64,000 bases of DNA from Pseudofabraea citricarpa (Eukaryota > Ascomycota > Leotiomycetes > Helotiales > Dermateaceae). The DNA lies in NCBI GenBank assembly GCA_029641185.1, contig JAPWGK010000005.1, positions 1,798,001-1,862,000 on the forward strand. The letters run 5' to 3'. The notes under the pieces are model-generated. The model saw only the letters and a program-made list of their open reading frames with translations. It had not been told where the DNA came from and did not search any database. Positions 10,702 through 15,236 of this stretch are shown here, one piece after another (positions within the stretch are counted from its first letter, which is position 1; every line of letters begins with the position of its first letter). Made by a program: the position numbers and the translations under genes.

Positions 10702-13255
10702 CTAATACATCTCTTGGTCGGAAGGGCTCATGTCTTCGATTTCTTCCTTGGTCCAGTCGGCCACATCTCGAGCTCTCTTGATCGCAAAGTAGACATCTTT
10801 TCTCTCCATTCCATTGAGATTCTCCATGGCTCTTGAAGCATCAGACTCCTTCTCGAAGCGTACATAAGCGGCATTCATCCTAACTCCATACTTGTTGTGG
10901 ATAAATTGTACCTTTTCGACATAGCCGTAATGGGCAAACCAATGCCTAATGTTTCCTTCTCGGACACTTCTCATAAAACCCGCAACACAAAGGTTTCGTG
11001 GCGACATATCCTTTGAGAGGTCGTCTCTGATGGTTTGTAGGGGCACTTGGCGAAGAGGTTGGACCCATTTTTCAGCTTTATGCTTGCTAATGATGGCCCG
11101 GAATTCAAGCTTCACGAAACCAGTAAACTTTCGCTTTCTAGCATAGTCTGGCATGAAGGTCCTACAGAACTCTTGGGCCATGGCTTGTGCCAACTCAACC
11201 TCTGGAGAAGCGGGCGTCACGGTGTCCTCGGATGAGCTTGTAACTGAACTTGTAACCGAACTCTTTCGCTTGGCTGGTGGGAGAGCAGGCCAAGAATTAG
11301 CATCATCCAAATCTGGCAGAGGTGATTTTGCATCTTCATTGCCAACATGGACATGCCAGATGTAACCTTTGGGCTCGCCGAAAACAAACTCCGAGTTAGC
11401 AGCATGGATGGGTGTACCAAATTGATGAGCGAACGACTTATTTTGAGTTCCAGCATGTTGGGACAATGACGATTGGCCATATTGTGCTCCATTACCGACG
11501 GATTGAAAGGCCGAAGGAGAAGCATTCGATGGATTTGCAGCCTTGTCGATGGTGTATTTGATAATATTGCTGGCATTGGCTACTGGCTTACTTTCCTCCC
11601 GCGTACTGACCCAGTTTGTTATCTTGTCGACAGCACCTTGTGCGATAGCTTGCTTTTGAATGGCGGTGTTCTCGTCCGAAACTGGGAAGGGAATCACATC
11701 TGTACCTGAACCACCCATCAACTTTGGAGCATGTTCAACAGTTTCTGCCTTCAATGGAGCTTTAGCTTCTTTGACTTCTTCAGACAAGTAGTCGAGGTTG
11801 TTCTTAGAGGCCTCTTCAGTCTGTGAAGTTATTGAACCACCTGTCTTTGCTGCAGTATTGTGCTCGTCAATGCTGCTGGCTCCAGATCCAGGACTGGCTT
11901 CGTTCTTCACAAGTGTCGATCGACGAGAAGATTTCTTGATGCTCTCGTACAAGCTACCAAGCTGGCTGCCTGTACCGAACTCATGATGCTTCTCAGATCC
12001 TGAACCTCTGCGTTGCTGAGTAAAGATCTGAACCGAAGGTTGACCTGGTTTAGTAGTCTGCTCAATATCATTGTGGCCATCCCGTCGACGTTGACCATCC
12101 GCAGATTTCTGCGGGCTTGAGATTCCTTCATCCGCCCACTTTGCACTCTTGTGCTTTTGGACAAGGCGTCGGATATCAGGATCCATCTCGGCTTTTATTT
12201 TCTCCTTCTTTGCGTAATCTGGAAAGAAGGTGATAGTGAACTCCTTTGCTTGTGCTACGGCTATGTCGTATGGGTCGACACAAGCAGTTGCGTTAAATGG
12301 CTGCAGAGAAGGGCGCGGAGGTGGGGATAGAGGTGGTGGACTGAAGAGAGCAGGGGAAAGTTTCTGCGGGACAAAGTTAGTGCTCAATTCTTGAGTTGAA
12401 GTGCCTTTGTTATACCTTTGGACTGCATAAAACGGGGGAAAGTTCCTGCGGATGATGTTAATGCTCAGTTCTTGAGTTGAAGTGTCTCTATCGTACCTTG
12501 TGGCTACAGAAAACGGGGGAAAGTTCCTGCGAATGATGTTAATGCTCAGTTCATGAATCGGGATATCTTTATTATACCTTTGGGCGGACGAAAACGGGGC
12601 AAAGTGCCTGCGAGAGAGTAAGTGCTCAGTTCGTGAATTGGGGTGTTTTTTGTCGTACCTTTGGACTGAAGAGAACGGGGAAAGGTTCCTGCGGAGGATG
12701 TTAATGCTCAGTTCGTGAATCGGGACATCTTTGTCATACCTTTGGGTTGGGGAGAACGGGAGAAAGTTCCTGCGGAGGATGTTAGTGCTCAGTTCGTGAG
12801 TGCTCAGTTCGTGAGTTGAGGTGTCTTCGTCGTACCTTTGGGCTCAAGTGCAGCCTGGGAAGTAGAGTGATTATTGGTCGTTGGTTCTCGACTTGAGAAG
12901 ACTGAAGAGTTTTACATGAGACCGTGGTTCACGGAACCATCTAGACGGTAACGGAACTTACCTTGCACGGGGTATCCTCATGGACCGCAGAAATCTTCCC
13001 ATGGACCGCAGGAATATCTTCCCGCACCGCAAAAACTTCCTTGCGAATCGCAGAAACATTCTCATAAACCGCAGGAATATTCTCACGAACCGCAAAGACC
13101 TCCTCGTGGACCCCAGAAATCTTCTCTTCGACTGCAATGATCTCGTGGATCTTGATGACCTCGAGGGGTTCGGCGGTCGATGAGACAGGCTGGGCTTTGG
13201 GTGACCAGTCCCAGTCGGCCAGCTCGAGCAGGTCACTCCTGATATTTAAAGACAT
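10702..13255 (-). CDS. RRM-domain protein built by tandem exon-intron duplication
   Basis: Predicted RNA-binding protein of 723 residues; I do not recognise a named orthologue. Exons: 12962-13255, 12836-12901, 12740-12769, 12659-12688, 12578-12607, 12497-12526, 12416-12445, 10702-12363; all junctions are phase 0. Residues 39-94 are eight 7-residue repeats (IIAVEEK, ISGVHEE, VFAVREN and so on) with hydrophobics at positions 1 and 4, hence probably a coiled coil. Five 10-residue exons follow (consensus ELSPVLxSPK). A motif of about 45 residues occurs twice (about 204-246 and 561-604; pattern AQ-EF-TF-PDYA-KHK-KW). A single RRM lies at about 627-697 with RNP2-like LCVAGF and RNP1-like MNAAYVRF. 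The middle is Ser/Thr-rich and probably disordered. The introns contain stops in frame, so splicing is required. The start at 13255 is the first ATG of an open exon; exon 2's acceptor is my best reading. Confidence 0.8.
12364..12902 (-). repeat. 81-bp tandem array of exon-intron units
   Basis: Donor-side exon ends fall at 12416, 12497, 12578, 12659 and 12740, exactly 81 bp apart, then 12836 (81+15). Each unit is a 30-nt exon and a 51-nt intron. Introns share the donor GTAYRA, a TGAGCAYTAAC branch region and a CGCAG acceptor. The fifth intron on this scale (12770-12835) is 66 nt because 15 bp inside it are duplicated; the last (12364-12415) is 52 nt. Exon and intron parts are both still similar between units, so the expansion is fairly recent. 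Confidence 0.92.
13034..13141 (-). repeat. 21-bp heptad-coding repeats in RRM-gene exon 1
   Basis: The coding strand repeats a seven-codon unit eight times (residues 39-94, about 12974-13141). A higher-order period of three heptads is visible: ISGVHEE-VFAVREN-IPAVYEN and VSAIRKE-VFAVRED-IPAVHGK, followed by ISAVHED. This suggests duplication of a 63-bp block. Confidence 0.8.
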
Positions 13256-14150: not shown

Positions 14151-15236
14151 CTTTCGTTGCATGACGGACCTTTCAGTGAATGAGTAAACATGGATTATTT
14201 TGGTGTAATATAGTACTCTTAAAGCTGGTTGAACTTTCGTTGCATGACGGACCTCTCAGTGAATGAATAAATTTTAAAGCTTTAGGACCTTTCTTCAACC
14301 CTCAGCTGACCAGGCAGAGTTTCGTTGCATAACGGACCTCTTAAGTGAATTCCATAAATTATACAAATTTCAGTGTATAGTAGTAGTTGTAAAGCTGGTT
14401 GGACTTTCGTTGCGTGACGGACCTTCTAGTGAATGTGGAAGCTGTAGAAATTAGCAGTCTTGAAGCTGGTCAGACTTTCGTTGCGTGACGGACCTTCCAG
14501 TGAATATATAATCTGTAGAAATTAGCAGTCTTGAAGCTGGTCAGACTTTCGTTGCGTGACGGACCTTCCAGTGAATATATAATCTGTAGAAATTAGCAGT
14601 CCTGAAGCTGGTTGGACTTTCATTGCGTGACGGACCCCTCAGTAACTGAGCGAAAAATAAATCGAATTGACTAAAACCAAATTTACACCTAGCAGAAACG
14701 GAGTTTTCGTTGCGTGACGGACCTTGTCAGTGAATTTGGGTAAATCGTGGATGATCTTGTTTGTACAGCAGTCTTGGAGGTTCGGGGGCTGTTTTCAAAG
14801 TACCAGTCGGTTGACCTTTCGTTGCGCGACAGACCCTTCAGCAATTGAATGCTTGCTACAGATTAAAGCAGAGTAGCAAATTTAAGACGTGAGAAGATTT
14901 GCAGTTTCGTTGCGTGACGGACCTGTCAGTGAATGGGTGAATAACAGATTAGAACAGAGTAGAAAACTTAAGACATCGAGGGATTCATAGTTTTCATCGC
15001 ATGACGGACCCCTAAGTAACTGGATGAATCATGAAATGGACAATAAATTAATTGCAAAATAAGCAAGGTTGAGAATTTTGATGTCTTAGGAAACCTGCAA
15101 AATTTCGTTGCACGACAGACCCATCAGTAACTGAGCAAGATACGGAATAAAAGAAAAATATCAGAAACGAGTTTAAAAGTCTTAATTTCTCTCCCTTGAA
15201 ATTCGTTGCGTGACGGACTCCTAAGTAACTGAATGA
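14151..15236. repeat. 13-copy degenerate tandem repeat, core TTTCGTTGCRTGACGGACC
   Basis: Copies of a roughly 31-bp core (19-bp most conserved part TTTCGTTGCRTGACGGACC, then a weaker TTCAGTGAAT) begin near 14151, 14234, 14319, 14404, 14475, 14546, 14617, 14704, 14816, 14904, 14990, 15102 and 15201. Spacing is exactly 71 bp for four neighbouring copies and 83-112 bp otherwise. The sequence between cores is partly repeated too (AGCTGGT and CTTCAACCCTCA segments). A possible decayed extra copy lies near 13973. Neither strand gives a consistent coding or splice pattern, so I regard it as non-coding. Confidence 0.9.

Follow-up and report, generated by a model that had tools for sequence, protein, structure and literature searches.

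The gene and its surroundings

The 64,000-nucleotide window analysed here, to which all positions refer, belongs to a genome of 43,985,132 bases in 43 contigs and holds, on its minus strand, a gene whose predicted product ends in an RRM domain. The open reading frames adjoining this gene resemble PIP5K, XPG and acyl-CoA dehydrogenase, and these neighbours, together with the short introns, would fit a filamentous fungus. Our model of the gene has eight exons and seven introns (60, 66, 51, 51, 51, 51 and 52 nt, in order), giving a predicted spliced protein of 724 aa that is open throughout; in a base-by-base re-derivation, every join of the spliced model falls in phase 0.

Exon 1 (12962..13255) begins with an ATG at 13255, runs for 98 codons and ends in AAG, directly before the donor GTAAGT. 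It scores as coding in its own frame only, where the codon score is 0.136; the two remaining frames give −0.440 and −0.251. Much of it (12975–13163) is made of 21-bp repeats that translate into imperfect seven-residue repeats (..AVHEDIP..), so that this exon and the 81-bp array described below place two different minisatellites within the gene. Intron 1 of the model (12902..12961; 60 nt, GTAAGT...CTTCAG) showed no good branch motif when its sequence was read directly. Exon 2 of the model (12836..12901; 66 nt, SSQVENQRPIITLLPRLHLSPK) is the least certain of the exons, its codon score of −0.074 lying at percentile 0.10 of coding windows and 0.63 of off-frame windows.

At the other end of the gene, exon 8 (10702..12363) comprises 553 codons and a stop, begins KLSPALFSP and has its first internal ATG at 12186. 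The RRM domain occupies residues 460–521 of this exon (10801..10986; Pfam RRM_1, 38.2 bits, cut-off 20.7), and its nearest solved chains are ELAV/Hu proteins. In a protein search of its own genome, exon 8 was single copy except that a second, weak match (E 0.0036) covered the RRM region, and among 7889 candidates of the protein collection its product had no homologue at E <= 0.001.

Anatomy and divergence of the 81-bp array

Between exons 2 and 8, on the minus strand, lie five 30-nt units that start at 12769, 12688, 12607, 12526 and 12445 and are spaced at exactly 81 bp. In the model they are mini-exon 3 (12740..12769, ELSPVLPNPK), mini-exon 4 (12659..12688, EPFPVLFSPK), mini-exon 5 (12578..12607, ALCPVFVRPK), mini-exon 6 (12497..12526, ELSPVFCSHK) and mini-exon 7 (12416..12445, ELSPVLCSPK). 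The first is preceded by intron 2 (12770..12835; 66 nt, GTACGA...CGCAG), which carries a 15-bp internal duplication recognised by TRF in its own right at 12784–12816. Between the mini-exons stand intron 3 (12689..12739; 51 nt, GTATGA...CGCAG), intron 4 (12608..12658; 51 nt, GTACGA...CGCAG, with a compensated +1/−1 and the branch region CACTTAC), intron 5 (12527..12577; 51 nt, GTATAA...CGCAG) and intron 6 (12446..12496; 51 nt, GTACGA...CGCAG), and intron 7 (12364..12415; 52 nt, GTATAA...CACTAAC...CCCGCAG) leads into exon 8. The donors of introns 2 to 7 thus read GTACGA, GTATGA, GTACGA, GTATAA, GTACGA and GTATAA.

Much of this had been described in an earlier, sequence-only reading of the locus, and re-derivation from the window returned the same five 30-nt units at the same spacing, with the same peptides, the same flanks (an exon end in LHLSPK and an exon start in KLSPALFSP), and GTAYRA donors and CGCAG acceptors in six of six array introns. 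Two of its generalisations hold in part. The intron length of 51 nt applies to introns 3–6, while introns 2 and 7 measure 66 and 52 nt, and the TGAGCAYTAAC branch region is found in five of the six array introns, intron 4 having TGAGCACTTAC in its place. The in-frame stops that it placed in the introns are present, relative to the exon frame, in all six; a point absent from it is that the RRM exon's frame stays open over the full array, from 12843 onwards.

TRF reports the array at period 81 over 12337–12799 (5.7 copies, 78% matches, score 463) and, with a higher score of 511, at period 162. Six 81-column units have a mean pairwise identity of 0.756, against 0.262 for shuffled sequence and a shuffle maximum of 0.306 (n = 2000), which is far above chance expectation. 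In every copy a whole intron-like interval, together with exon ends, forms the tandem unit in the same register, with GT and AG in place in all six. All indels (the 15-bp duplication, the +1/−1 and a +1) are confined to introns; the spacing from the last mini-exon to exon 8 is 82 rather than 81. Taken as an intron plus the exon that follows it, the units are 67–83% identical, and the array introns by themselves 71–88%. The closest intron pairs are 3 with 5 (0.88) and 2 with 6 (0.86), a likeness that fits some duplication at the level of two units. In a DNA search of the 44-Mb genome that scored the best candidates, the array matched only its own locus.

The sequence-only reading had also proposed that the array serves as a splicing-based way of varying protein length. 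Such a role is putative; the units differ from one another at 17 to 33% of columns, a divergence that leaves the array without the look of one that is freshly expanding. It is doubtful, on our assessment, that the array is a minisatellite of actively spliced mini-exons in which weak donors admit zero to five of the exons per transcript and the number of units varies between strains, so that copy number and alternative splicing together would yield graded protein lengths.

Evidence bearing on splicing of the units

That the units are exons is something we infer from sequence rather than observe. The main contest is between spliced mini-exons and one 598-nt intron, and we put the probability that the mini-exons are spliced, at least in large part, at roughly 60%. 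The preference has two grounds: each unit repeats the branch and acceptor module that is needed at 12364, and a GT that lay in phase by chance would seldom be kept through five copies.

The first of these grounds follows from how exon 1 can reach the RRM frame. Counting single-intron joins alone, there are 116 formal joins from exon 1 into that frame, of which five combine a GT[AG]NG donor with a YAG acceptor. Two of the five skip the array, running from GTAAGT (12961) and GTGCGG (13027) to the acceptor of intron 7 at 12364, through which exon 1 leads into the RRM exon in phase 0; the other three run from GTGAGA (13086) to acceptors inside the array, with introns of 421, 583 and 664 nt. The only one of the formal joins to use a GTAAGT donor ends at 12364, so the branch and acceptor module there must work in such models, and it is this module that the five upstream units repeat.

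The second ground is statistical. GTA and CGCAG are invariant in six of six introns, while 23 of 51 intron columns are variable (for this count the 15-bp duplication of intron 2 was set aside, as were a single A from intron 4 and a single C from intron 7, and one gap was added). Of 20000 neutral runs on a star tree, a tree that overstates the number of changes, 3.2% retained both GT and AG in every one of the five units. When the acceptor module was held fixed and the exons were required to be open, the probability that a donor would lie in phase by chance and be kept in all five copies was 0.012–0.051 for GT and 0.001–0.009 for GTA (three divergence settings, 20000 runs each). Should the ancestral unit already have carried GT, the probability that all five copies keep it is 0.10–0.33, and retention would then be unremarkable.

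The same figures bear on the other side of the contest, in which GTAAGT at 12961 is joined directly to the CGCAG acceptor at 12364, the array is a minisatellite inside a single 598-nt intron, and the product has 651 aa. Such a join would use a strong donor, is in phase 0 on both sides and leaves the protein open, and it would account for array donors that are weak and for units that lack codon-level constraint. It would, however, require five upstream acceptors with near-identical branch and acceptor modules to be ignored, and the in-phase GT of five units to be a coincidence, at the chance probabilities just given or at those for an ancestral GT. An intron of 598 nt is long for a fungus. We consider this arrangement unlikely, while treating it as the principal competitor of spliced mini-exons.

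Several features of the array count against splicing of the units. All six array donors have A at position +6, and two of them are GTATAA. The consensus branch sequence ACTAAC occurs in two of the six array introns, ATTAAC in three and ACTTAC in one. Nor does the coding content of the units speak for selection on a peptide: among mini-exons 3–7, with exons 2 and 8 left out of the count, changes fall at codon positions 1, 2 and 3 in the numbers 5, 9 and 6, so that the mini-exons show no codon-position bias and hence no protein-level constraint; counts of this kind fail to separate the candidate frames. Read in the exon frame, the mini-exon codons score 0.024, at percentile 0.19 of coding windows and 0.91 of off-frame windows; in the read-through frame, that of the RRM exon, the same stretches score −0.186 (percentiles 0.00 and 0.29). 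The whole array in the read-through frame has an intermediate score of −0.023, at percentile 0.05 of coding and 0.89 of off-frame windows. All array codon scores are weak evidence, since copies of a single unit, five in number, do not count as independent.

These properties, namely weak donors and units free of codon-level constraint, would also be expected if the upstream part of the gene were degenerate or untranslated, the RRM protein starting at ATG 12186 within exon 8 and the array belonging to a 5' region that is in decay and spliced erratically. The poor score of exon 2 points the same way, as does the failure of the exon 8 product to find a detectable homologue among the candidates searched. 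Against such decay, exon 1 has a coding-like score in no frame but its own, exon 8 is open through all 59 codons that precede ATG 12186, its first 50 codons score 0.122, as coding sequence does, and the full 724-codon frame is open. On balance, we hold a degenerate or untranslated upstream region to be quite unlikely.

The open frame of the RRM exon raises one further alternative, that the array is a 27-residue protein repeat read through within one exon (NFPPFSSAQRYDKD...HELSINIIRR), to which the GT and AG borders are incidental. Translation in this frame would yield the peptide DVPIHELSINILR, and between 12843 and the RRM exon the frame meets no stop codon; the unit length of 81 is divisible by 3, as is the difference from 51 nt in five of the six intervals between units. 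The frame nevertheless has no ATG inside the array, the score of its mini-exon parts is that of non-coding sequence and is exceeded by nearly all coding windows, and the single-intron joins by which exon 1 enters it within the array start from donors that are poor or far away. Since 26% of neutral runs would leave such a frame open in each of the five units, its openness needs no explanation. This expectation and the poor or distant joins from exon 1 together leave read-through very unlikely. Spliced mini-exons stay our preferred reading.

Donor usage across the genome

We compared the array donors with matches throughout the genome to a donor followed by a branch and acceptor pattern, which numbered 1044 for GTAYGT, 353 for GTAYGA, 329 for GTATAA and 157 for GTATCA. 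Normalised by hexamer counts from a 262-kb sample, the rate before a YTAAC...YAG tail is 0.0273 for GTAYGT, 0.0093 for GTAYGA and 0.0070 for the control GTATCA; the rate for GTAYGA is hardly above the control, which makes the array donor class at best a minor one. The donor GTATAA of introns 5 and 7 was left out of this comparison because AT-rich blocks inflate its count, and a reversed-pattern control was not taken as background since its words differ. Strikingly AT-rich repeated stretches do occur among the GTATAA matches, on contigs C3, C4, C6 and C8 among others. Such a composition would be expected of decayed repeats where a fungus has repeat-induced point mutation (RIP).

The branch letter gives a similar picture. 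Among the first 50 matches listed for each donor, counted approximately by eye, CTAAC and TTAAC stand at 40:10 for GTAYGT, 32:18 for GTAYGA, 34:16 for GTATCA and 16:34 for GTATAA, and the resemblance of the GTAYGA ratio to that of the control speaks against the array donors. Attempts to learn donor preferences from the locality were less informative: a set of frame-joining introns from 200 kb of neighbouring sequence and the window gave nearly flat donor columns, and stricter intron training sets came to just 9, 7 and 5 groups. Near 71 strict branch and acceptor tails we found GTACGA, GTATGA and GTATAA 0 times each, GTAAGT and GTATGT 5 times each and GTACGT 3 times, too few donors for training.

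Tested pairing and neighbouring repeats

The 21-bp repeats of exon 1 are partly reverse-complementary to the 3' splice sites of the array (12351–13087). The pairing was matched by 1 of 200 dinucleotide shuffles of exon 1, by 0 of 200 shuffles of the targets and by 8 of 300 random genomic pieces. It was equalled by 32 of 200 synonymous permutations of exon 1 and by 4 of 36 tiles of exon 8, and we rejected a splice-guiding pairing of the docking-selector, Dscam-like kind.

Between the start of the gene and the PIP5K gene, the region 14152–15218 contains 13 spaced copies of TTTCGTTGCGTGACGGAC, all on the plus strand (counted with at most 3 mismatches; chance expectation 0.05). Three to four of these copies fall within a 71-bp tandem repeat, and in a DNA search of the genome the region's sole match was its own locus.

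Proposed origin and relation to known systems

The sequence-only reading attributed the array to tandem copying of whole units of intron and exon. Copying of such a block is the best reading of the anatomy; the part of the claim that the copies splice as exons is, with donors this weak, only likely. The homology between units can be followed from CC.AAAG, which directly precedes intron 2's donor, to a point about 26 nt inside exon 8 (CTCTTCAGTCC), after which ACC follows in exon 8 and AAAG in mini-exon 4. From these boundaries, and from the observed register, open spliced frame, single locus and sequence decay between copies, a course of events may be proposed in which the splicing, the order of the steps and any role of the repeats are inferred.

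The ancestor would have had an ordinary short fungal intron of about 51 nt, preceded by an exon ending ...CCAAAG and followed by the RRM exon, which begins AAACTTTCCCC... To judge by the block boundaries, a tandem duplication would have taken in this intron and about 26 nt of the next exon, and the joint, between CC and AAAG, would have carried a donor along with the copy. Each extra block would then bring its own branch region, a CGCAG acceptor, 30 coding nucleotides in phase 0 and a donor in the context AAG/GTAYRA. Repeated duplication, perhaps partly at the 162-bp level, may have produced the five mini-exons, and the six array introns are most likely removed singly, which would add up to five imperfect 10-residue repeats before the remaining protein. 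As each unit is 30 nt long and in phase 0, the frame survives the omission of any of them from the transcript, and partial skipping would be tolerated.

The suggestion that a minisatellite built of complete exon and intron units is rare is fair, although the kind has been described before, in Cryptococcus CNN00420 (PMC2395259) and in Arabidopsis TOUCH3 (cited in PMC2395259 and PMC4974935). By analogy with these, the array appears to belong to a known class, intron gain through tandem duplication of an intron-bearing block, with splicing putative in the present case. Cryptococcus neoformans CNN00420 has repeats of about 107 nt, each with exon ends and a whole intron, that are supported by ESTs and vary between strains (PMC2395259). 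Shared features are exon ends and one whole short intron per unit, several near-copies, a single-copy gene and GT and AG borders. In CNN00420, introns 3–5 are identical and the unit is about 107 nt (PMC2395259), whereas here the unit is 81 bp and the introns are 71–88% identical; there, ESTs support splicing and repeat number varies among strains, whereas splicing of the present array is predicted. With units 67–83% identical, the array is older than the CNN00420 repeats.

TOUCH3 is cited as a case of intron multiplication by tandem duplication (PMC2395259, PMC4974935), and in potato RdRp an intron was gained by duplication of an intron-exon block, its donor newly recruited at the joint (PMC4974935). 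In both, the duplicated block brings a branch site and an acceptor, as would the block proposed here; they differ in involving one or two duplications of larger blocks, against five 81-bp units here. Yeast FLO-type coding minisatellites, as cited in PMC2395259, likewise have a tandem unit that is a multiple of 3 within a gene, but they are read through in one exon, whereas here the gene start reaches the read-through frame in the array by poor or long joins only.

Two other comparisons were set aside. Introners share with the array the presence of many near-identical introns, but they lie at many loci and the array block at one; an introner identity was rejected on the single genome match among the best candidates scored, as opposed to matches at many unrelated loci. 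The SP7 effectors of Rhizophagus were weighed as an earlier case of one repeat per exon and dropped, since in the portion of PMC11333574 consulted a conserved intron precedes the first repeat rather than one accompanying each repeat; passages on SP7 in PMC3886924 added nothing to the comparison.

We give the finding moderate weight, as it concerns a single predicted gene model of a kind already described. If the units are spliced, it would be a very compact case, at 81 bp, of intron number rising through expansion of a DNA repeat, and would show that short in-phase units of exon and intron can multiply without breaking the frame. The locus would also offer a small test bed for a spliceosome that faces six near-copies of one intron in a row.
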